Shown here in pieces: positions 1-20,030 of a stretch of DNA of 20,030 nt. Where the stretch lies: IMG/VR virus record IMGVR_UViG_3300034062_001868, positions 1 through 20,030 of that record; one strand, 5' to 3'. Positions within the stretch are counted from its first letter, which is position 1. The number at the start of each line of letters is the position of its first letter. The notes beneath the pieces are model-generated. The model saw only the letters and a program-made list of their open reading frames with translations. It was not told the DNA's origin and did no database searches. The DNA is from a virus. Both the position numbers and the translations under genes were made by a program.

Positions 1-444
1 CCAACCTGACACATAGTCATCAAAGGACTCACTGAATGGCAACATTTGAATTGGGTAATCAATATCCAAGTTACAATAACATTCCATTCCTGTAGCATAT
101 TTTAATTGAGCAATAACGTCTTTAAGAATATCCAATGTATCACTCCAAACATCAGTCTCATTCTCAAAGTTCTTAACATTAAGAATGTCCATAATCATAA
201 TGTTAAATGTATATACGGTTTCTCTACCATCAGTAGTTGATTCTTCTGGCATAACCCACATCAATGGATAGTATGGGGCATAGTTTTGTTCGGTATTGTC
301 AACTTTTAATCTTTCCTCTGTGTAATAGATTAATTGATTAACATCACCAATACCCCAACCTTGAAGTTGTTCGTGGTATGTTTGTAGTTGTTTTAATAAA
401 TCAACTATCTTTTTAAAATTGTAATATCCTACTGCGTTTGCCAT
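1..444 (-). CDS. Tail terminator/completion-like structural protein (partial, 3' end outside window)
   Basis: An open frame starts at an ATG at 442-444 and runs through the window edge with no stop; 148 codons are visible. It begins MANAVGYYNFKKIVDLLKQL and contains a hydrophobic strand followed by VWSDTLDILKDVIAQLK and, near the edge, PFSESFDDYVSGW. That order (beta strand, D-rich turn, long helix, then an SESFDD-like end) resembles tail terminator/completion proteins of Bacteroidota phages, but I recognise this from pattern only. The start lies 3 bases after the stop of the upstream tail-chaperone reading frame, so the two are probably co-transcribed and coupled. The leader is A/T-rich with no Shine-Dalgarno sequence. 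The C-terminus lies outside the window. Confidence 0.6.
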   Translation of the reverse strand, partial: MANAVGYYNFKKIVDLLKQLQTYHEQLQGWGIGDVNQLIYYTEERLKVDNTEQNYAPYYPLMWVMPEESTTDGRETVYTFNIMIMDILNVKNFENETDVWSDTLDILKDVIAQLKYATGMECYCNLDIDYPIQMLPFSESFDDYVSGW

Positions 445-447
445 ACT

Positions 448-732
448 TTATACTTTATATTTCATTTTTTGTTTTTGAATCTCTCTCGCTCTTATGTCGT
501 TTAAATCCTTTGTATATGATAAATAGTTTAATACAAATATTAACGGGTATTGCGTAATTTCGTCCATCTTTGTGATATCTTCATTGGCAAGCGTGACAAT
601 AGTGCCAAACCAACCCCAAAACTTATTAAAAGAAGAAATTTCACGGAGAGATAAATCATCCTCGTCATCATCTTCACTTTGTTCCAAAAAGAGAGCGTCA
701 TATTTCCTTGTGATATTTTTCCTAAACGCAAA
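448..732 (-). CDS. Tail assembly chaperone C-terminal part, read in the -1 frame (gpGT-like extension)
   Basis: If the reading frame slips back one base in the T9 tract, translation continues FFAFRKNITRKYDALFLEQ, an acidic EDDDEDD stretch, then FNKFWGWFGTIVTLANEDI, TKMDEITQYPLIFVLNYLSY and a charged end, stopping at 448. The fused product would be 169 + 94 = 263 residues. The FWGW...DEIT...P...VLNYLSY pattern is what I associate with the C-terminus of tail chaperones and related baseplate-hub chaperones, so this frame appears to be under selection. I would not call it a separate gene: its first internal ATG lies inside the acidic stretch. Either the frameshift is programmed, or the tract is mis-called or mutated by one base. 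Confidence 0.6.
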   Translation of the reverse strand, partial: FAFRKNITRKYDALFLEQSEDDDEDDLSLREISSFNKFWGWFGTIVTLANEDITKMDEITQYPLIFVLNYLSYTKDLNDIRAREIQKQKMKYKV

Positions 733-1238
733 AAAAAACTTGAAGCTCCGTTCACATATTTGACAGGTAGTTTTTTAAACTCTTCTGACCTTAGTTGAAC
801 TTTACTTGAATCGTATGGTAGATAGTTCCCATTCTCATCAACCTCACGATATAACATTGCCATTAACAAGTTCATCTCTTTCTTCTTCTCAATAACTGGC
901 TTGGTTAAGAATCCATCTATGTCAATGAACTCCCCGAACTTTAAGTTTGGTAAATCTAAGAATCTATATTTCTTACCATTAAACTCAAACTCATTTTTAA
1001 ACTCTGAACTATCAACTAAGAAGTATTGTGAAATGGTTTGTGCTGCATCAAGTATTTCTTGGTAATCAGCATTCTCAATCTCTTCTTGTGATAGTCCTGT
1101 TATCTGTGATAACAATATGGTTGAGAACTCTCTTTCATCACTCCATTCTTGAAGAATCATTATCTTTGACCAGTCTTCAATTGTTGGTTCATTGATTAGG
1201 TAGTTCTTCCCTTTGTATTTAACGTATTGTTTTTCCAT
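540..1238 (-). CDS. Tail assembly chaperone, zero-frame product (232 aa)
   Basis: The N-terminal ~169 residues look like a phage tail assembly chaperone of the gpG/T4 gp26-like kind: an acidic alpha-helical domain with LLMAMLYREVDENGNYLPYD at about residues 123-142. After residue 169 the frame reads through a run of nine T (730-738) and continues for 63 residues of unconvincing composition (LRLGKISQGNMTLSFW...). The natural-looking C-terminus, with conserved-looking Trp and aliphatic residues, is instead in the -1 frame (see 448-732). In siphophages this protein and its frameshifted form bind the tape measure protein during tail assembly. The gene starts 38 bases after the large terminase stop and is preceded by a promoter-like element. 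Start: first ATG after that element. Confidence 0.7.
   Translation of the reverse strand: MEKQYVKYKGKNYLINEPTIEDWSKIMILQEWSDEREFSTILLSQITGLSQEEIENADYQEILDAAQTISQYFLVDSSEFKNEFEFNGKKYRFLDLPNLKFGEFIDIDGFLTKPVIEKKKEMNLLMAMLYREVDENGNYLPYDSSKVQLRSEEFKKLPVKYVNGASSFFLRLGKISQGNMTLSFWNKVKMMTRMIYLSVKFLLLISFGVGLALLSRLPMKISQRWTKLRNTR
730..738 (-). other. T9 slippery tract, candidate -1 frameshift site
   Basis: On the coding strand the zero frame is AGT TTT TTT TTG, so the heptamer T TTT TTT fits the X XXY YYZ rule for -1 slippage. The -1 frame stays open for 94 codons to 448 and encodes the plausible C-terminus. A GGAG lies about 7 bases upstream; whether it can act as a stimulator is doubtful in a host that does not use Shine-Dalgarno pairing. 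An equally long tract at 3901-3909 lies in a gene whose frame is intact. Confidence 0.55.
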
Positions 1239-1276: not shown

Positions 1277-2515
1277 TTATCTAACCACATACTTCCCGTA
1301 GTTAATTTTCTTTTTCAAACATTCATTCGCCATTGCTAGACTCATAACCATATCATCATGGAACCCATTAGGAGCTCCGTATTTAACTCTTCTTGTCTTG
1401 GGTGAGTATTCATATGTAAAAACACTTAACTCCTTGTAGAGGTCAGGATTTAGTTCTTTAGAGGGTAACTTAATCTTATCCTCATTCATGGTCATAATTA
1501 AATCTTCAATGATATTTTGTTTTGAGTCGTTTGTTGTAACAAATGGTTCCACATTGGAATATTGTTTTTTAACCTGTTCATATACAGGGTCACCAACTCC
1601 GTTAATCTCAATGATACATCTGGCATTATAAGTTCTTAATACTTTAACCACTTCTGAAACAATGATGTTCCACGAGTTTTGTCTTTGTCTATATATGTTA
1701 ACGACATCACCATTTGAATTTAGAATGGTTAATACCGTGTAGTCATTTGCTCTACCAACGTCCAATCCTGCATAATACTTCTCACCTGATACAAATGGGG
1801 GATATGAACTTAAGACACTGGTTAATTCCAATGATGAGAATACTTCCCCACCATCATCCAAGAACTCAGCTAATATCTCTTGACGATATATTCCATCAGG
1901 TAATGAGTTCTTTGCATCAATCAATTCTTCTTCACTAATGTATGGGGAATCAAATGATGATGCTTTAATTGTTTTGTATTGTGGGTAATCTTCGTTATCA
2001 CCTCTTATTGCCATTTCATAGAACCAGTTCCTTCCTTTGGGTGTGGATAAGAATAATACCTTCTTACCCTTAACCAAGATGGTTGCTCTTAATACTTCAC
2101 TCCATACGTTATTCTTGATGTATGCCGCCTCATCTACCACAAGGTATGTCAATGTATTACCACGTAGGTTATCTTCTCTCTCAGCTGACCTAAAGTACAT
2201 TATAGACCCATTGATGAATGTGATTGTTAAGTCTGATTTGTTAACTGACTTTGTAAGACCTGAACTAGCTAATGATAATGCTAATTCTTGGAATACTTTT
2301 TTGGATTGAGCAAAGATTGGTGCTACCCACATTCCGATTGCACCGTTATCTTCCAATAACCATTTCAATATAATGTTAATACCAAGAAAAGACTTACCCA
2401 CCTGTCTACCACAGTTAGCAATAATGTACTTGACATTCTCATCCAAACAGGCATTGATAATCTCCTGTTGTTTTTTGTGTGGGGTAAATCCTTGAACTGA
2501 TATTGTTTTAATCAT
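1277..2515 (-). CDS. terL: Terminase large subunit (DNA-packaging ATPase/nuclease)
   Basis: The 412-residue protein carries the full large-terminase motif set. Walker A is GRQVGKS (residues 36-42), Walker B is LVVDEAA (125-131), and the coupling motif is FLSTPKG (155-161). The C-terminal RNase H-like nuclease has acidic residues in LDVGR (D252), IIEINGVGDP (E303) and HDDM (D387/D388). It packages phage DNA into the prohead through the portal and cuts it. Length is usual for compact terminases. It overlaps the small subunit by 8 bases, so the pair is translationally coupled. No frameshift or missing residue is seen. Confidence 0.95.
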   Translation of the reverse strand: MIKTISVQGFTPHKKQQEIINACLDENVKYIIANCGRQVGKSFLGINIILKWLLEDNGAIGMWVAPIFAQSKKVFQELALSLASSGLTKSVNKSDLTITFINGSIMYFRSAEREDNLRGNTLTYLVVDEAAYIKNNVWSEVLRATILVKGKKVLFLSTPKGRNWFYEMAIRGDNEDYPQYKTIKASSFDSPYISEEELIDAKNSLPDGIYRQEILAEFLDDGGEVFSSLELTSVLSSYPPFVSGEKYYAGLDVGRANDYTVLTILNSNGDVVNIYRQRQNSWNIIVSEVVKVLRTYNARCIIEINGVGDPVYEQVKKQYSNVEPFVTTNDSKQNIIEDLIMTMNEDKIKLPSKELNPDLYKELSVFTYEYSPKTRRVKYGAPNGFHDDMVMSLAMANECLKKKINYGKYVVR

Positions 2516-3254: not shown

Positions 3255-3566
3255 CTAAACCCCATATAATCTTATATAGGCGTTCCTAAGGTTTCTTAAT
3301 ACTTGGGTAAAACATTTACCACAACTCAACCTTTTATTGTCATTTAATACCCTATTATTTAAATTAACTAACCATTGTTGTTGTTCTTTGGTTATATTCT
3401 GTTTATCAATTAGGGTCATTGCTAAATCTAACTCTTCTTTCGTCCAGTTTTGGAATTTAACATTCTGTTCTTTTTTGTTTTTACATGTGCTACATGGTGG
3501 TGTGTCAATTGGAACAAACTCCAATTCTTCTTGTACCTTACTGGTATCTTCTACTTTATTTTTCAT
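3255..3566 (-). CDS. Small double-CxxC protein, putative zinc binder
   Basis: 103 residues with an acidic N-terminus, CSTC (C25, C28) and CGKC (C82, C85) separated by a helical WTKEELDLAMTLI...EQQQWLVNLNN segment. The four Cys could bind one zinc ion, or two copies could do so in a dimer. The start overlaps the end of the sigma-like gene by 11 bases, so it is expressed with it. It may assist the sigma-like neighbour or the packaging genes downstream, but this is only inferred from position. Confidence 0.65.
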   Translation of the reverse strand: MKNKVEDTSKVQEELEFVPIDTPPCSTCKNKKEQNVKFQNWTKEELDLAMTLIDKQNITKEQQQWLVNLNNRVLNDNKRLSCGKCFTQVLRNLRNAYIRLYGV

Positions 3567-4056
3567 GATTTTTATATTTATTCCATTTATAGTTTAACCA
3601 TTCCTTCATTTCTTTTAATGTTATTCTTAACGAGTACTTTGGTATCTTTGTTAATCTGTGTAGTTGTTCTAACTTCTTGTGTTCCAAATATAATGTGTAT
3701 ATCCCGTGATTATACCAAAAAGTAGGGTTGGACTTCAACTCATTATCTAAAGTCTCTGTAATCCAATCTAATGTGGGTAATTCGTTATACTCTTGGTCTT
3801 TACGTTCATAGTTAATTGGAATCTCTTGGAACACATATTTTCTATATGTTTTATGATATGATGAGTTGTTTGAATAATACTGATTGGTGATTGCTCTTAC
3901 AAAAAAAAATACTTTGGACTTTTCATCCAAAGCATTATATACCTTATTAGATTTTAATTGGATTAATACATCGTGAAGCAAGTCACTAGTATTCTCATCA
4001 TTCTTACAAATCTTATTTGCAATCTTTCTTAACTCATTATATTCTTTACTCTCCAT
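3556..4056 (-). CDS. Sigma-factor-like / DNA-binding regulator
   Basis: The 166-residue protein has DLLHDVLIQL near residues 25-34, which resembles the core of sigma-70 region 2 (Dxx(Q/H)(D/E)V), and a helix-turn-helix-like segment at about residues 127-150 (KLEQLHRLTKIPKYSLRITL), where a region-4-like domain would be. The middle (YYSNNSSYHKTYRKY) is basic and aromatic. Similar small sigma-like proteins occur in Bacteroidota phages. It could direct host RNA polymerase to the promoter-like elements seen here; that is inference. A T9 run at 3901-3909 is read in frame (FFF) without disruption. It overlaps the HNH gene and the CxxC gene by 11 bases each. Confidence 0.55.
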   Translation of the reverse strand: MESKEYNELRKIANKICKNDENTSDLLHDVLIQLKSNKVYNALDEKSKVFFFVRAITNQYYSNNSSYHKTYRKYVFQEIPINYERKDQEYNELPTLDWITETLDNELKSNPTFWYNHGIYTLYLEHKKLEQLHRLTKIPKYSLRITLKEMKEWLNYKWNKYKNHEK

Positions 4057-4758: not shown

Positions 4759-4941
4759 TTAGTTAAATTGTTCTAATTGTTTTATCTCACCATAGGTTAA
4801 TCCACATGATGAAGTTCTTTCAAACCATTCTTGGTCTATAATTCTTGTGATTGAATCTTCTTTTGATTCTACTTTGAGGATGCTTTCAATATCCCAATCT
4901 GTTGTTACGAGTGTGTCCCCGCTTATTCTTAATGTTGCCAT
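4759..4941 (-). CDS. Small protein, unknown function (start at 4941 preferred)
   Basis: 60 residues starting MATLRISGDTLVTTDWDIES and ending in a charged helix (LTYGEIKQLEQFN). A longer in-frame start at 5001 would add MLLLILLLPLIIFIYIKEKN. I reject it because that stretch coincides with a promoter-like element and repeated A/T-rich leader sequence, and its Leu/Ile composition follows from the T-rich DNA. If the long form were used it would be membrane-anchored. The function is unknown. Confidence 0.6.
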   Translation of the reverse strand: MATLRISGDTLVTTDWDIESILKVESKEDSITRIIDQEWFERTSSCGLTYGEIKQLEQFN

Positions 4942-4961
4942 GTTCTTTTCTTTTATATATA

Positions 4962-4992
4962 TAAATATAATCAAAGGCAACAAAAGTATCAA
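4962..4992 (-). promoter_or_regulatory. Promoter-like element upstream of the gene starting at 4941
   Basis: Minus strand: TTGA, 19-base spacer, TATATTTA, then 20 bases to the ATG, including an A-rich AAAAGAAAAGAAC leader. The -7-like box is identical to the one before the gene at 5681. The region also holds two copies of GCAACAAAA on the plus strand. Confidence 0.45.
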
Positions 4993-5007
4993 GAGCAACA
5001 AAAAAAA

Positions 5008-5367
5008 TTATTTCATTGCAGATAACATTTCTCCATCAGGGGAGTTCTTCTCTACTCTTGTAATTTTCATATTCTCAAGAACTGATGTAAGACGTTCTAT
5101 ACGACTTTGATAAAGGTCATAAGGTAAATCCTCAATCTCTCCTTTATCTGTCTCAAAAACTAATTGAATGGTGGTTAAAAAGATGTTTGCAAATACTTTG
5201 TGATGGTCTCGTTTGAGTTTTTTATTTGCTTGGATTACAAAGTATTGTAATTCTAATTGATTGGTGAGTAATTCTAATAACTCATACCTAATGGTTTCTA
5301 TTGGAAAAGGATAAGTTGGATTATCCTGAACAACTGACTCTAACAAAGGGCTTATTTCTTGTTCCAT
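5008..5367 (-). CDS. Helical protein of unknown function (119 aa)
   Basis: Mainly alpha-helical: an acidic start (MEQEISPLLESVVQDNP), a Leu-rich helix (IRYELLELLTNQLELQYFVI), a basic turn (KKLKRDHHKVF) and a further helix. No motif is recognised. The start is the first ATG after a terminator-like hairpin (5378-5451) and lies 5 bases beyond its T-run, which suggests control of this gene at the leader. Overlaps no neighbour; the next gene downstream starts after a promoter-like element. Confidence 0.65.
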   Translation of the reverse strand: MEQEISPLLESVVQDNPTYPFPIETIRYELLELLTNQLELQYFVIQANKKLKRDHHKVFANIFLTTIQLVFETDKGEIEDLPYDLYQSRIERLTSVLENMKITRVEKNSPDGEMLSAMK

Positions 5368-5377
5368 AGATTAAAAA

Positions 5378-5451
5378 GAGGGGGTGTAGGTAAAAAAAAA
5401 GAAAGGTAATTTAATATAGAGCACATTAGAATCAAACCCTACAACCCCCTC
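5378..5451 (-). terminator. Hairpin with long loop between two small genes (terminator or attenuator)
   Basis: Minus strand: GAGGGGGTTGTAGG starts 3 bases after the stop at 5454 and pairs with CCTACACCCCCTC, giving 13 pairs with one bulged base and a 47-base loop. A T5 run (5377-5373) follows, then AATCT and the next ATG. The stem is strong, but the loop is longer than in a typical intrinsic terminator and encloses a promoter-like sequence. Confidence 0.5.
5406..5436 (-). promoter_or_regulatory. Possible promoter inside the hairpin loop
   Basis: Minus strand: TTTG, 19-base spacer, TAAATTAC. This fits the spacing and half of the Bacteroidota -7 box (TAnnTT). Transcripts started here would lack the 5' arm of the surrounding hairpin. 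Weak match; AT-rich background makes chance likely. Confidence 0.25.
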
Positions 5452-5453
5452 GG

Positions 5454-5681
5454 CTAAATAATATCAAACTCTAATACATCAAAGTTTTCGTTGAGTCTAT
5501 ATTTTAATTTCTGTCCAACCATTCCTGGTTCTAATACGTTATTGACTTCAACAACTACTGGGTCTTCAATATCTTCCAATAAAAAGTTATAATAATACTT
5601 TGGTTGAACACCATCTCTAAATGATTTTTCAACTTTCATTAATTTAACTTCAAGTATCTTCTTTGTAATTAATTTTCCCAT
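5454..5681 (-). CDS. Small beta-rich protein, unknown function
   Basis: 75 residues with alternating hydrophobic strands: KLITKKILEVKLMKVEKSF, YYYNFLLEDIEDPVVVEVNN, then GQKLKYRLNENFDVLEFDII. The pattern suggests a small barrel such as an OB or SH3-like fold, but no motif allows a functional call. The gene starts 5 bases after a promoter-like TATATTTA box and is closed by the hairpin at 5378-5451, so it may be its own short transcription unit. Confidence 0.65.
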   Translation of the reverse strand: MGKLITKKILEVKLMKVEKSFRDGVQPKYYYNFLLEDIEDPVVVEVNNVLEPGMVGQKLKYRLNENFDVLEFDII

Positions 5682-9711: not shown

Positions 9712-10251
9712 TTATAGTGGAGTAGGTGTAGGTGTAGGAGATGATGTTATTGTCACTGTAGGAGTCGGTGTAGGAGATGATGTTATTGTTACTGTAGGAG
9801 TTGGCGTTCCACCTGTAATACAGAATTCTTCTTGTTCTGAAACATAGATAATACTGTAAGCGTCTTCATTAGGGCTAATGTATGGTTCAAATAAACATTC
9901 ATCAGTTTGTGAATCACCAACAATTACGATAGCTCTTCCTGATTCCAATTTATTATATGCCAAAGCAATATCGGTATTTCCTGAACTAACCTGTTCATAG
10001 ATTGAATAGTAATACTGCCCGATATAGTTAAAGAAGGCTTGAGGTGGAGTTAACGATAAATTGGTTGCACCTTCCACAAAACGGAACTTATCATATCGTG
10101 TGTTACTCACAATTACTTGTGGAATAAAACTAACACGCTCTTTTGAGGCGATATGTTGAAATGAGAATAGGTAATATGGATTCGGCAATGTCTTGTTCAT
10201 AGACACTGTCGCAATCAAATTATTTGTTTCTCCTTTTCTAATTATTAACAT
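9712..10251 (-). CDS. Virion structural protein with PT-repeat tail
   Basis: 179 residues. The first ~140 form a beta-rich domain (MLIIRKGETNNLIATVSMNK; PYYLFSFQHIASKERVSF; FFNYIGQYYYSIYEQVSSG) like a conserved structural protein often found near head and tail genes in gut and freshwater phages. The C-terminus is a Pro/Thr/Ser linker made of two copies of PTPTVTITSSPT-type repeats, ending TPTPL. The tail ends abruptly without the usual folded domain, so it may act as a flexible tether or glycosylation-prone stalk. Function unproven. Confidence 0.6.
   Translation of the reverse strand: MLIIRKGETNNLIATVSMNKTLPNPYYLFSFQHIASKERVSFIPQVIVSNTRYDKFRFVEGATNLSLTPPQAFFNYIGQYYYSIYEQVSSGNTDIALAYNKLESGRAIVIVGDSQTDECLFEPYISPNEDAYSIIYVSEQEEFCITGGTPTPTVTITSSPTPTPTVTITSSPTPTPTPL
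9731..9802 (-). repeat. 36-base tandem repeat coding a PT tail
   Basis: Two copies of a 36-base unit (9731-9766, 9767-9802) differ at two bases and encode 12 residues each. In frame with the gene at 9712-10251. Confidence 0.85.
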
Positions 10252-10318
10252 CTTCGCTTATGATATAATGTGCATCAAGTTTATCGTCTATTAGTATAAA
10301 TAAAATATTCATTGTGTG

Positions 10319-10540
10319 TTATTTTATTTGAGTAAATGGATTATTAATTACCCATCTAATCTCATAATTTTCTATATCTAATATCTCATCTAATTTAGAT
10401 TTGTATAGAATAGCATAACCATCATTTATTTGAAATGGAAACTCCCATTTAATATCTGTTGAAACAACTATTAATTCATAGACTTTAAAACATTCCCTAA
10501 AATCTTCAAAGTATAATATCTTAAAATTACCAGCTTGCAT
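10319..10540 (-). CDS. Small protein, unknown function (73 aa)
   Basis: Begins MQAGNFKILYFEDFRECFKV and shows alternating strands (ELIVVSTDIKWEFPF; GYAILYKSKLDEILD; YEIRWVINN). It overlaps the end of the PT/LamG gene by 14 bases, which supports co-expression, and could be a chaperone or accessory of that protein. No family recognised. The 67 bases after it hold no structure I can support. Confidence 0.55.
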   Translation of the reverse strand: MQAGNFKILYFEDFRECFKVYELIVVSTDIKWEFPFQINDGYAILYKSKLDEILDIENYEIRWVINNPFTQIK

Positions 10541-11996
10541 AGTTATATTTTGTTTTAAGATAGTTCATAACTTGTGTATATTCACCAGCAGTTAATTTTC
10601 TGTTATAAACAATATATTCAAATACAGTTAAACTTGCTACAGGACTTCCTGTTGAACCAACAGCTATATTGAATGCTGAGGCGGCTGATGGAGTTGCTCC
10701 TGATGTGTTAAATGATGTAGTAAAGTTTGATGATTTAGCATCATATCTTGCTTCAAATTGACCTGGTGTTCCACTAACACTATAAATCATAGGTAATTCA
10801 GAAATACTATTTGAATCTGCAACAGATAATGATGCGGTTCCAACATAAGTTGTATTAAAGTTATTATTTGCGCCTGATTTATCACTTGTTTGAGTAAAGG
10901 CGGCATTATAAAAACCACTATAAGTATTAGCATTTCTCCATTTAACAACAGCAAATGTTGTTAATCCTGAATATGTTATTGGACTAAAACCAGAATTAAG
11001 TTCATCATTACTTGTAAACTCAACAGCTTGTCCTGAATAAGAACCTAATGATGATGTTACTAAAGATGGTTGAGTTGATACATTACCATTAGCTAATGTA
11101 TTACCTAAATACGATTGATTAGTCCAAGAAGATACACTAGCGTCTACAGTTGAAATATACCATTGTTGTAAATTACTTGTAGGAATTGCTGGAGTTGCAC
11201 TTGGAGTAGGAGTCGGCGTTGATGTTGATGTATTTGTAGGTGTTACAGTAGGAGTCGGCGTTGATGTTGATGTATTTGTAGGTGTTACAGTAGGAGTCGG
11301 CGTTGATGTACTTGTTTGAGTAGGAGTAGGAGTTACACAATCAAGACATCCGTCAGGGTCACTACTTGTAATTTCACCTGCTGTTCCAGCAAATACTCTA
11401 AGCCATCTCAATGTATCAGATAATTGAACAATGTATGTATCATTTGGAACTGGTATTGTAAATGCTGAATCAAGATAAACAAATTCATTAATATTAAGTT
11501 GTGAGCCTTGTGATATTGGACCATATAACGTAATTGAACTTGATGATAAACAAGCAACACATGCAGTTGAACCAGTATAAACCGAATAAGAAATAACTGA
11601 TTGAGTCGGAGTTATAGTAGGAGTCGGTGTTGATGTACTTGTTTGAGTAGGTGTAGGAGTTGGGGTTCCCGTATTAGTTGGAGTTACAGTTGCTGTTGTA
11701 GTGGTTGTAGGTGTAGGAGTTGGGGTTACAGGAGTTGATGTGGGTGTTGGTGTAACTGGAGTTGCTGAAGGTGTCGGAGGAATTTGTCCAATTACAGTAC
11801 CAGATTGTTGACCATCGTTCTTTGGAACTAAATCAATTCTTCTATAACGAGATTTCTTATAATCCCAAGACTCTAAAGGATTAGCGTTTAATGGAACTTT
11901 TTCGCCCATAAAATGAGTAGGTGCGTAAAAGGTTTCTTGTTTACCTAATACACCCCAAGTTTTACTATCGCTTTTTCCTTTTCTAAAATTTTTCAT
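10527..11996 (-). CDS. PT-repeat protein with LamG-like C-terminal domain (virion decoration or adhesin candidate)
   Basis: 489 residues. N-terminal 1-72: a basic, Trp/Tyr-containing anchor ending KNDGQQSGTVIGQ. Then a Pro/Thr linker, a small domain with two Cys pairs (ACVAC and GCLDC) and ITLYGPIS / LRVFAGTAG, a second and longer PT linker with 14-residue repeats, and a C-terminal concanavalin A/LamG-like domain (AVEFTSNDELNSG, LTTFAVVKW, FEYIVYNRKLTAGEYTQVMN). This looks like a virion surface protein whose lectin-like domain binds glycans, held on flexible stalks. It is preceded 14 bases upstream by a terminator hairpin, so expression may be lower than that of the tail-tube gene. Confidence 0.65.
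   Translation of the reverse strand: MKNFRKGKSDSKTWGVLGKQETFYAPTHFMGEKVPLNANPLESWDYKKSRYRRIDLVPKNDGQQSGTVIGQIPPTPSATPVTPTPTSTPVTPTPTPTTTTTATVTPTNTGTPTPTPTQTSTSTPTPTITPTQSVISYSVYTGSTACVACLSSSSITLYGPISQGSQLNINEFVYLDSAFTIPVPNDTYIVQLSDTLRWLRVFAGTAGEITSSDPDGCLDCVTPTPTQTSTSTPTPTVTPTNTSTSTPTPTVTPTNTSTSTPTPTPSATPAIPTSNLQQWYISTVDASVSSWTNQSYLGNTLANGNVSTQPSLVTSSLGSYSGQAVEFTSNDELNSGFSPITYSGLTTFAVVKWRNANTYSGFYNAAFTQTSDKSGANNNFNTTYVGTASLSVADSNSISELPMIYSVSGTPGQFEARYDAKSSNFTTSFNTSGATPSAASAFNIAVGSTGSPVASLTVFEYIVYNRKLTAGEYTQVMNYLKTKYNYASW
11209..11308 (-). repeat. 42-base tandem repeat coding the second PT linker
   Basis: Two full perfect copies (11209-11250, 11251-11292) and a partial third of a 42-base unit starting GGAGTCGGCGTTGATG on the plus strand. 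Each encodes a 14-residue Pro/Thr/Ser unit in frame. Confidence 0.9.
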
Positions 11997-16218: not shown

Positions 16219-18432
16219 TTAAATAGTGGAACGAGATTTAATCGCTCTATCCATCATTTGTTGGTTTGTAATATCTCTTGCAACTACGTATGTTTTGATT
16301 GGTTCAGAACTATTCATACCACCCAATGAGTTAGCCAAATCTGTCATTGCTTGAGTTTGATTGAAGTCAGATGATACAATACCACCCGAAGCAAATCTTC
16401 TACCACCACCTATTGAATTAATCGTAGATAATAATGGTTTAAACATTGCAGTTGATGAAGCATTAATTACTGATTCACCATTTGACAATAATGCGGGGAT
16501 TGAGTCACTTGTTCCTGAACCATATCCTGATACGAATCCACCTCTTGCTAATCCTCTTGGTTTTGGAACTGATGGTCCTCCACCTCCTTGTGCCGCTCCA
16601 CTTCCTCCACCTGAACCTCCTGCTGCTGATGGTACTGGTGTGGCAATAATATCTTTAACAGCTTTAAAACCAATCAATCCTGTTGCAACAGCTTGAACGA
16701 TTGCGTAACCAGGAACAGGTACCTTAGCAAAGGCAGCTAATTGACCCGCAATAGCCGTATATGTATTGATTAATGATGCCGCAACCGCCAAAGCTTTACC
16801 AGCCACAGTATTCTTTCCAATGATGTCAGCAACTGCGGTTATTGCCGCTCCTGTCGCATTTAACAATGCTTGTTGAGCTTCAAATTTCTTTTGGTCAATC
16901 GCAATCTGAGCATCCGCATTTGCTTGAACATTTGCGGTCTGTTGGTCTTGTATTAATTTTCTTTGTTCTGCCGTTAGATTTTCTTGAGCAAGTAATGATT
17001 CATAGTATAATCTATCTTGTTCAATCTTGGCGTCTAATATCCCTTGTTGTGCGTCAAAATCATTAGTAGCTGCTTGCATCTTCTGAGCAAATGCCGCATC
17101 ATCAGACTTCTTTTGTTCTTCTTGTTTCTTTAAGAATGTTGCTACATCAGATTCAATTCTTTTTTGGTTTTCAGTTTGAACAGTTGTTGTTAAGTTCTGT
17201 TGTTCAATCGCAATGTTCTTAAGTCTTAAAACTTCAGCATCTGTAAGTTCTTTCTTTTGACTTAATATGTCTTTTTCATTTTGAAGTGCTTGAGATTGTG
17301 CTACAAATACAGCATCCTGTGCTGCTCTTGCTTCTTTGGAGTTCTCACCATAGATTGCTTTAGCTTCATTATAGTTTGCCGTTAATTGGTCAATCTGTAA
17401 TTTACCAGCTTCTTGTAATTGTTTTAAGTCATCATCAAACGCTTTTTGTCTTGCGTCTTTGTCAGCCTTTAATGCTTCATCAACCTTTTTAGCATTCTCA
17501 GCTCTTAATACTTGTTTCTGAGCATCAGTCATTTTTTGACCTTTAATCTCAGCTTGGAATCTTTCCTCATACAATGCCATTAACTTCTCTTTGGAAGTAT
17601 TCTCAGCATCTGTCTCAAGTTTAATCTTTGCTTCAAGGTCAGCCTTTCTTAGAGCCAATGCATCAGCGGCAGCCTTTGCGGCTTTCTCAGCCTTTTCTTT
17701 TCTTATTTTTTCTTGTTCTTCAGCATTCTTCTTTTCAGTTTTTGTCATTTCTGACGCACCTTTATCAAATGCTTCGGCGGTTTTGTTAAACGTATCTCCA
17801 AAACCTGTTACTGAAGATTTAGCGTCTTCCCATGCTCCTTTAAAATCACCACTAAATACTTTGTATAACGCACTACCTAACTTACCAATAGATTGAAGTA
17901 ATGTTGAAATTGAGGTATAAATGTACTTTATACCAGTTGTGAATAATGGCATTGCCTTAATAGCCAAATCAACAAACATATCAAATACAGGCTCTAATGC
18001 TGTGAATATACCACCAAGAATCTGTTCAAATTGAATCATAATTGGTTCAAGCTTCTTCATTGCCTTTTCGTTTTCACTAAAGGCTTTTACAAGCATTCCA
18101 ATCAATCCTACGACTAAACCAATTCCTGTGGCTTTAAGAGCTAATCCAAATTTATTAGTTGAAGAAGTAATAGTATCAAGTCCACGACCAAGCATACCCA
18201 AAGGGCCTGGTGCAGATGCAAGAGTATCAACAAGGTCTTGGGATTGAGTTGTCGCACCCTTTGTCTTGTCTTTAATGTCAGCCATTCTTTGAGCGACTTT
18301 CTTATAGTCCTCACTACCAGCAACAAGTTCTTTTTGAACCTGTTTTAACTCTCTTAAGGTCTTGAGGGTATCACCACCTTCAAGAGCGGTATTAACCCTG
18401 ACATTTAAATCAACTGTTTTTCCTGCCATCAT
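16219..18432 (-). CDS. Tape measure protein
   Basis: 737 residues. Hydrophobic stretches at about 96-117 (GLALKATGIGLVVGLIGMLV) and 138-165 suggest membrane-active parts; a long Ala/Lys/Glu/Gln-rich coiled coil follows (about 225-520). The C-terminus has a hydrophobic Ala-rich part, a Gly-rich linker and GFVSGYGSGTSDSIPALLSN GESVINA, a motif typical of tape measure C-termini. It sets tail length (737 residues at about 1.5 Angstrom each gives roughly 110 nm) and enters the host envelope on infection. The start codon follows TAA by one base (TAATATG), coupling it to the 48-aa gene. Confidence 0.85.
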   Translation of the reverse strand: MMAGKTVDLNVRVNTALEGGDTLKTLRELKQVQKELVAGSEDYKKVAQRMADIKDKTKGATTQSQDLVDTLASAPGPLGMLGRGLDTITSSTNKFGLALKATGIGLVVGLIGMLVKAFSENEKAMKKLEPIMIQFEQILGGIFTALEPVFDMFVDLAIKAMPLFTTGIKYIYTSISTLLQSIGKLGSALYKVFSGDFKGAWEDAKSSVTGFGDTFNKTAEAFDKGASEMTKTEKKNAEEQEKIRKEKAEKAAKAAADALALRKADLEAKIKLETDAENTSKEKLMALYEERFQAEIKGQKMTDAQKQVLRAENAKKVDEALKADKDARQKAFDDDLKQLQEAGKLQIDQLTANYNEAKAIYGENSKEARAAQDAVFVAQSQALQNEKDILSQKKELTDAEVLRLKNIAIEQQNLTTTVQTENQKRIESDVATFLKKQEEQKKSDDAAFAQKMQAATNDFDAQQGILDAKIEQDRLYYESLLAQENLTAEQRKLIQDQQTANVQANADAQIAIDQKKFEAQQALLNATGAAITAVADIIGKNTVAGKALAVAASLINTYTAIAGQLAAFAKVPVPGYAIVQAVATGLIGFKAVKDIIATPVPSAAGGSGGGSGAAQGGGGPSVPKPRGLARGGFVSGYGSGTSDSIPALLSNGESVINASSTAMFKPLLSTINSIGGGRRFASGGIVSSDFNQTQAMTDLANSLGGMNSSEPIKTYVVARDITNQQMMDRAIKSRSTI

Positions 18433-18817: not shown

Positions 18818-20030
18818 TTATCCTGTGATTGTCCATCCTTTACCAGTAGCAATGGCTCTTTCAGCAGGTGTTAATGCTGCTGCTCCTGATGCTCCTGTAA
18901 TGTTTATTGTTTTTGAAGTTATAGTTGGTAAGTCCGTGAATACTTGAACCAATGCCGCCTGACTTAAACTTGTATATGAAATGTTAATCTGTGGTGAAGT
19001 ACCTGCATATTGACCAGAGCCAGTGTTTCTTAATCTTAATGAGTTTAATAAAGATTGAATAGTTGCGGTTCCATTCATCTCTAATTTAGAAAATTTACAA
19101 TAAAAATCAGCGTTACCTGTAAATTGATAAGAGCCTGTTGATACACTATCACCAGCAATATAAACCGTTGCTGCGGTTGATGTATTACCAATAAATTGAA
19201 TATTGTTTACTGTCTTTAATGCGGGGCAGTTTTGAATCATTCCAGCAATTGTTGTTATTCCAGTTGTTTGAGTTGTAGGTAATGTTAATGTTTCCAATGC
19301 AGTACAATTAGTAAATGAACTATTATAACTGCTTAATGAAGCATTAACAGTTGTAGGTAATACCAAAGTTTTTAATGATGTACAAGTATTAAACGCAGTT
19401 GCCAAACCAATAGTTGTAAGTGCAGTCATTGATGTTGGTAATGTAACCGATATTAAACTTAGACAACTACTACAAATTGAACCCATAGTTGTAACTGAGT
19501 TCATTGTTGCAGGAAAAGTTAAACTTTCTAAATTAATACAGTTTTGAAATGAACCATTTAAACTAGTTACTCCTGTCATTGATGTTGGTAATACAATAGA
19601 TTTAAGATTATTACATCCTGAACACATTGAAGCCATTGTAGTTATACTATTTTGAGTATTATTTGGAAGTTGAATTTTTCTTATATTACTGCAGTTTTGA
19701 AAACATAGTGATAGTGACGTTATGTTATATGAACTTGGAACAATCACTTCTGATAGTGCTGAACAAGTACTAAACATAGAATTCATCGCTACTGTTGCCC
19801 CGATTGTTGTGGGTAATGTTATTTCTTGTAAGTTGTGACATGCATTAAACATTGAAGACATATCCGTTAAAGATGGAATACTTGTAGGTAATGTTACACT
19901 TGATAATGAATTACAACTTGAGAACATTGCAGACATTGTTGTTGCATTAAAATTTGTAGGTAAGATACAAGATTTTAAATTACTACAACCATTAAACATA
20001 GCATTAGATAAAAATGTGTTTCCTGCCGTT
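18818..20030 (-). CDS. BspA-type leucine-rich-repeat protein, putative tail fibre/receptor-binding (partial, 5' end outside window)
   Basis: The frame is open through the window edge (TAGNTFLSNAM precedes the first internal Met at 19999), so the N-terminus is missing. About eleven repeats of 23-27 residues are seen, pattern (M/S)F..C..L....LPT, with a Cys in nearly every repeat, as in BspA/DUF285-type proteins. The C-terminus (SKTINITGASGAAALTPAER AIATGKGWTITG) matches the end found in many phage BspA-like fibres. BspA proteins bind host surface or matrix proteins; in a phage, a receptor-binding fibre is the likely role. It sits upstream of tail genes. Confidence 0.75.
   Translation of the reverse strand, partial: TAGNTFLSNAMFNGCSNLKSCILPTNFNATTMSAMFSSCNSLSSVTLPTSIPSLTDMSSMFNACHNLQEITLPTTIGATVAMNSMFSTCSALSEVIVPSSYNITSLSLCFQNCSNIRKIQLPNNTQNSITTMASMCSGCNNLKSIVLPTSMTGVTSLNGSFQNCINLESLTFPATMNSVTTMGSICSSCLSLISVTLPTSMTALTTIGLATAFNTCTSLKTLVLPTTVNASLSSYNSSFTNCTALETLTLPTTQTTGITTIAGMIQNCPALKTVNNIQFIGNTSTAATVYIAGDSVSTGSYQFTGNADFYCKFSKLEMNGTATIQSLLNSLRLRNTGSGQYAGTSPQINISYTSLSQAALVQVFTDLPTITSKTINITGASGAAALTPAERAIATGKGWTITG

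Follow-up and report, generated by a model that had tools for sequence, protein, structure and literature searches.

A T9–T10 tract of conserved length joins two reading frames in a probable tail assembly chaperone gene of mostly uncultivated phages

The DNA analysed here, termed the window, is a 20,030-base stretch (34% G+C) of an uncultivated IMG/VR virus. The gene of interest is encoded on the minus strand, from 1238 down to 448; the original prediction had its coordinates right and left the strand unstated. From an ATG at 1238 the zero frame runs for 169 codons, the last of which (...GAS AGT TTT TTT) lead into a run of nine T's (T9, 738-730), and the complete zero-frame ORF (540..1238) encodes 232 amino acids, comprising 169 residues through Phe-Phe and a tail of 63 residues that ends at a stop at 540-542. 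From base 732 the -1 frame can be read for 94 codons, as far as a stop at 448-450, and encodes FAFRKNITRKYDALF...DEDDLS...WGWF...ANEDITK...YPLIFVLNYLSY..., in which an acidic linker is followed by the pattern WGW...ANEDITK...YPL..VLNYLSY. No ATG is present in the -1 frame ahead of residue 56 of this C-terminal part (C-part). The +1 frame is shut two codons past T9 in the window, has a TAG stop within two codons in most relatives and is closed after two codons in 80 of 80 marine loci (the best 80 of more than 500), so that +1 products would end at once. The sequence TTTAG just past the tract (720-726 in the window, and present in nearly all relatives) is read as Phe-Arg in the -1 frame and as Leu in the zero frame, and supplies the TAG stop of the +1 frame.

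Table 1. Coordinates of the two-frame gene, its parts and neighbouring genes in the window
Feature	Coordinates	Strand	Basis
N-terminal domain of short and long forms, 169 residues, probable tail assembly chaperone domain	732..1238	-	Translation, AF2, Foldseek, Pfam
T9 slip tract, AGT TTT TTT TTG	730..738	-	Tract conserved, slip codons without synonymous change
Zero-frame tail of the putative short product, 63 codons + stop	540..731	-	Open-frame test, codon-position diversity
-1-frame C-terminal part of the putative long product, 94 codons + stop	448..732	-	Translation
Terminase large subunit (terL), immediately upstream	1277..2515	-	PHROG phrog_2 E 6.9e-51, Terminase_6N E 1.3e-17
Next downstream gene, tail-terminator-like by position only, cut by window end	1..444	-	
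Tape measure protein	16219..18432	-	PHROG tail length tape measure E 4e-13

The location given in the original prediction, with the terminase gene upstream, a small tail-terminator-like gene downstream and the tape measure gene far away, was confirmed. The downstream gene gave no significant family match, and its place is taken by a 182-aa counterpart in a relative, L181, where the order is terL, a small inserted gene, the chaperone gene, the terminator-like gene, further genes and, ∼9.5 kb downstream, the tape measure gene. The L181 ORF that separates terL from the chaperone gene (4917-5465) encodes 182 residues and is HNH-endonuclease-like by eye. The usual place of tail chaperone genes is just upstream of the tape measure gene; the present gene instead lies directly after terL, as does its counterpart in the cultured phage P12024S. 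Elsewhere in the window (9712-11996 and 18818-20029) are genes for proteins with long Thr-Pro repeats (TPTPT) and for a leucine-rich BspA-like repeat protein, which, judged by eye, are probably virion surface or host-binding proteins.

The N-terminal domain was modelled by AF2 with a pLDDT of 84.5. When this model was compared with the PDB (350,542 chains) using Foldseek, the top match, a weak one, was the HK97 tail assembly chaperone 2ob9 (E 0.21, probability 0.51), and the next best had a probability of 0.08. A match in BFVD annotated 'Tail assembly chaperone protein' was obtained at E 0.0076, and a PDB sequence search with the N-domain returned no match. Among 31 members of the family, 21 matched the PHROG family phrog_166 'tail protein' (best E 1e-4) and eight matched Pfam Phage_TAC_7 (best E 0.002, below the cut-off). 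The search with the C-part found no family of known function, and its AF2 model is of low confidence (pLDDT 62.6). From the short/long design of the gene, its structural-gene neighbourhood, the weak 2ob9 match and the sub-threshold Pfam matches, the product is very likely to be a tail assembly chaperone. The equivalence to G/GT in a Bacteroidota phage that was originally proposed is likely at the level of sequence, where two products are encoded, and stops short of proof with Pfam below threshold, 2ob9 weak and the host judged from distant relatives.

A search of IMG/VR recovered 53 loci with the N-terminal part and 16 with the -1 part alone. Of the 53, 52 carry T9 or T10 at the corresponding joint and in the register seen in the window; their zero-frame tail comprises 58 or 63 codons, and wherever the contig extends far enough the -1 frame can be read through 94-95 codons. 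The sole exception (L053) has T11 and a single frame, which reads as a length variant or an error, its neighbour L027 (99.8% identical) having T10. Independent assemblies of near-identical phages agree, all three of those compared having T9. Profile searches yielded 17 frame-split distant relatives, all with T9 or T10, to which two more with such a tract (L117 and L269) were added, and no frame-split relative, down to 31-41% identity, departs from T9 or T10. A second profile search, from which the best 80 of more than 500 relatives were taken, defined a marine clade with T9 in 79 and T10 in one, and four relatives found in contigs of metagenome-assembled genomes (MAGs) all have T9. Hence, apart from the one T11, the tract is T9–T10 throughout the tract-bearing relatives examined. 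The predicted division of the gene at T9 into 63 zero-frame and 94 -1-frame codons was thereby borne out, both frames and the tract recurring in 52 of 53 loci, far more often than by chance, and the alignment of homologues that had been suggested as a check supports programming, with both frames and the slippery site conserved.

The length of the tract is held while its phase relative to the codons drifts. Among 55 tract-bearing representatives the length is nine in 43 and ten in 12, with T7 or T8 in none, and the tract starts at codon position 3 in 25, position 2 in 28 and position 1 in two. Where the codon ahead of Phe-Phe contributes two T's (CTT, ATT or GTT), the codon behind usually gives one; where it contributes one (AGT, AAT or ACT), the next codon gives two or three (TTG, TTT, TTA). 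On the tree at least five changes of state are needed to account for the three phases and a single-frame lineage described below. A control is provided by a second coding-strand T9 in the window (3901-3909, encoding KVFFFVRA), which lies in a small sigma-factor-like ORF (3556-4056, minus strand). Relatives of this ORF have T9, T7, T6 or no run, and a programmed function for this T9 was rejected; it is probably incidental, and its loss among relatives indicates that a T9 is not conserved by default.

Selection on the two frames was assessed with 33 de-duplicated sequences. Synonymous change was 1.0 times expectation in the N-part, zero in the slip codons and first -1 codon, and 0.35-0.6 over the ∼40 codons after the slip site, beyond which it rose to ∼0.9. 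Elsewhere in the gene Phe is encoded by TTT and TTC at about 50:50, yet the slip codons show no synonymous change. Over codons 13-39 the diversity at codon position 3 was 0.24 versus 0.29 at position 1, a ratio of 0.84 versus 1.87 in the N-part, while over codons 40-57 the ratio was normal again, at 2.54. This flipped pattern is as expected with two coding frames, and the zero-frame tail thus shows the signature of dual coding with the -1 frame for approximately its first 40 codons. When the -1 protein was recoded at random with synonymous codons, the zero frame remained open for a median of 6-15 codons versus the 58-63 observed (median P ∼5e-4), and in a cruder control, based on other genes of these phages, 1.9% of positions had a +1-shifted frame open for at least 58 codons. 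For the marine clade, the recoding test returned a median P of 0.01, the synonymous signal was weaker, and the zero frame of one locus (L262) stops after seven codons. By these sequence tests the short-form tail is under selection in the window clade and is probably selected elsewhere too, more loosely. The original prediction had passed over it as 63 odd residues, and missed this selection. A transmembrane role for the tail was considered and rejected: it contains a hydrophobic stretch in the window clade (19-residue maximum ∼2) and, by eye, is not hydrophobic in the marine clade.

Homologues with an unbroken frame and no slippery site, which the original prediction had named as evidence against it, were found in one divergent lineage (L172-L175 and L179), where the N-domain and C-part are encoded in a single frame without a T tract. 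In an alignment, the spacing from a conserved G to the FR motif at the joint of these single-frame loci is the same as that produced by a one-base shift in the others, which argues that the fusion is a real protein layout. As judged from the alignments, selection acts on both frames as well as on the tract and on the fusion joint. Given that conservation of the two frames and of the T tract extends well past the species, and that the single-frame lineage encodes a fused product, the two-frame expression is almost certainly programmed and not an error.

Searches by DNA or by tblastn with the window protein found no relative in a cultured phage, and such relatives were reached through distant clades and a structure search. 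The latter, using the N-domain model, led to a protein of Nonlabens phage P12024S, whose host is a marine flavobacterium, and tblastn from a distant relative of the window gene (L177) confirmed this protein at 28% identity. In P12024S (JQ823122), terL (21928-23136) is followed by gene 38 with a T9 at 23578-23586 (ATA CTT TTT TTT TAT), and the -1 frame encodes a C-part with FR...WSW, sharing its stop with annotated gene 39. Genes 38 and 39 (23136-23830), both deposited as 'hypothetical', look like one two-frame chaperone gene. Phage P12024L has T9 as in P12024S, and its genes 40-41 correspond to genes 38-39. In Flavobacterium phage 6H (∼10055-10927) the N-domain has a distant structural relative, and T9 is missing; sequence resembling the C-part is present, unannotated, in another frame, the deposited frames do not join simply, and an indel error or another slip site may be responsible.

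A search of bacterial genomes for prophages with the C-part gave no match, and the distant N-domain gave the four MAG contigs, of which three are labelled as Bacteroidota (Winogradskyella, Psychroflexus and 'Bacteroidetes bacterium') and one as Campylobacterota. The last, in a MAG labelled Epsilonproteobacteria (L271), may be a mis-binned viral contig or come from a phage with a non-Bacteroidota host. The nearest cultured phages by terminase infect Thermus, Meiothermus and Halorubrum at ∼30% identity, which is uninformative as to the host. Shine-Dalgarno pairing is little used in Bacteroidota, and the start codons in the window, which have no clear Shine-Dalgarno motif, fit such a host. On the basis of these distant relatives, the window phage probably infects a member of the Bacteroidota.

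We propose that the zero-frame short form, consisting of the N-domain and the 63-residue tail, would make up most of the product and that in a fraction the N-domain would be joined to the 94-residue domain of the -1 frame to make a long form in the manner of lambda gpG/gpGT. RNA polymerase would stutter on the T tract to yield mRNAs one U longer, and on these ordinary ribosomes would pass into the -1 frame. By inference, the N-domain would then act on the tape measure protein and the C-domain on the tail-tube protein. T runs longer than eight are of the class used for transcriptional slippage (PMC3711429), and bacterial slippage occurs on A or T runs that are nine long (PMC5009743). A tract whose length is held while its phase drifts matches the prediction of slippage by RNA polymerase. 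In other genes of related phages, A runs of at least nine occur at 0.23 of the expectation from synonymous shuffling, as do T8 runs, and the length-dependent depletion of A runs of eight or more fits slippage either by the polymerase or during replication. A few chaperone genes are still included in the counts of T9 or longer; outside them there are just two such runs, both in the sigma-like gene.

The main alternative is -1 programmed ribosomal frameshifting, in which tandem tRNA-Phe slippage on U_UUU_UUU in a uniform U9 mRNA would give a G/GT-like pair and the U's beyond the heptamer would only raise efficiency. Such frameshifting is standard for lambda G/GT (PMC5009743), and most phage tail chaperones are assumed to use it too (PMC10885494); the frameshifts studied experimentally, in lambda and in an HK97-like cluster (6-7%), are treated as ribosomal (PMC3711429), which gives this reading a high prior, and a shift of a few percent is enough. 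The original prediction had relied on the agreement of T TTT TTT with X XXY YYZ, and the heptamer is indeed in frame in all tract-bearing members; however, any T9 contains an in-frame T_TTT_TTT, so that this agreement is automatic and carries no weight. In-frame T7 is mildly depleted in other genes (23 seen versus 40 expected, 0.57), out-of-frame T7 much less so (16 versus 18.6), which hints that ribosomes also slip there, and both machines may slip in these hosts. The ninth T could also be held partly by zero-frame coding, which counts against the polymerase. On the other hand, seven T's would suffice for the ribosome, yet nine or ten are kept in three phases, and in E. coli U_UUU_UUU is much less shift-prone than A_AAA_AAG (PMC5009743). 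With the 33 sequences RNAalifold found no consensus for a local, pseudoknot-free RNA structure, and folding energies compared with synonymous permutations gave no signal (z∼0). Neither is there a conserved Shine-Dalgarno-like motif before the tract, where the window has GGAG and others have GGTTC, AGTTC, CATTC and so on. Ribosomal frameshifting is therefore a serious possibility that falls somewhat below even odds. The evidence mildly favours the polymerase over the ribosome for the slippage step, and we place programmed expression by RNA-polymerase slippage at a probability of about 0.55. Thus, of the two options originally offered, a programmed -1 frameshift or a one-base error, the programmed one stands, though not necessarily as a ribosomal event, and the error does not.

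It is very improbable that two separate proteins are made, with the C-part translated alone from an internal start and no fusion. A TTG-started ORF at 448-687 would allow this, and the annotators of P12024S called a separate gene at the C-part, but the -1 frame lacks an early ATG as noted above, an invariant tract would be needless if the C-part were translated independently, and N and C form one protein in the single-frame relatives. The least probable reading, that a single frame with a true tract of T8 or T10 is obscured by a point mutation or by a mistake in sequencing or assembly, draws on the error-prone nature of homopolymers and on the single-frame T11 of L053, and is ruled out by homologues: P12024S and P12024L, both cultured, share the two-frame layout with well over 100 independently assembled loci, and selection acts on both frames.

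Tail chaperones with two products are a conserved feature of long-tailed phages, and their expression is discussed in terms of ribosomal frameshifting. What is new here is a site made up of T's alone and locked in length, in a large family of mostly uncultivated phages, together with a selected tail on the short form. In the searchable literature, outside subscription journals, we found neither a tail gene of a Bacteroidota phage described with a site of this kind nor any phage tail gene reported to use transcriptional slippage. The family is widespread, with a slip site of fixed length and free phase, no stimulator found, and hosts that are probably Bacteroidota. The proposal in full, that in these phages RNA-polymerase slippage on T9–T10 sets the ratio of the two products and that the short form has a selected, dual-coded tail, has in our estimation about an even chance of being correct. 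If polymerase slippage is indeed used, two products in a fixed ratio would be achieved at a different step of expression, as with dnaX. The dual-coded tail of the short form adds a second layer. Even cultured phages such as P12024S have the gene and its C-part wrongly annotated as two independent hypothetical genes, and for practical purposes the T9 tract offers a simple way to find and join both parts.

Compared with lambda gpG/gpGT and HK97-type chaperones, the present gene is similar in that one gene in the structural-gene region of a tailed phage would give two products with a common N-domain, of which the longer would enter the -1 frame at a slippery run, and in having HK97 2ob9 as its best PDB structure match. 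It differs in its all-T slip site, 9-10 long and with no stimulator found, in the conserved 25-63 residue tail of the short form, which appears dual-coded in the window clade, in its position after terL rather than adjoining the tape measure gene (∼9.5 kb before it in L181), and in having no significant sequence similarity to known chaperones. A homopolymer of at least nine A's or T's at a two-frame joint is shared with Thermus dnaX (A9), Shigella mxiE/spa13 (A/T runs) and Citrobacter tssM (A11), where there are likewise two length variants and no RNA structure is needed; unlike these cellular genes, which were proved by mRNA, the present example is a family of phage structural genes known from sequence. 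The closest parallel among cultured phages is provided by genes 38-39 of P12024S and 40-41 of P12024L (Inhavirus). The P12024S gene shares only ∼28% identity with a distant homologue of the window gene, has a short-form tail of only 25 codons and was deposited as two hypothetical genes, but in these phages, as in the window, terL is followed by a T9 gene with an FR...W.W C-part in the -1 frame.
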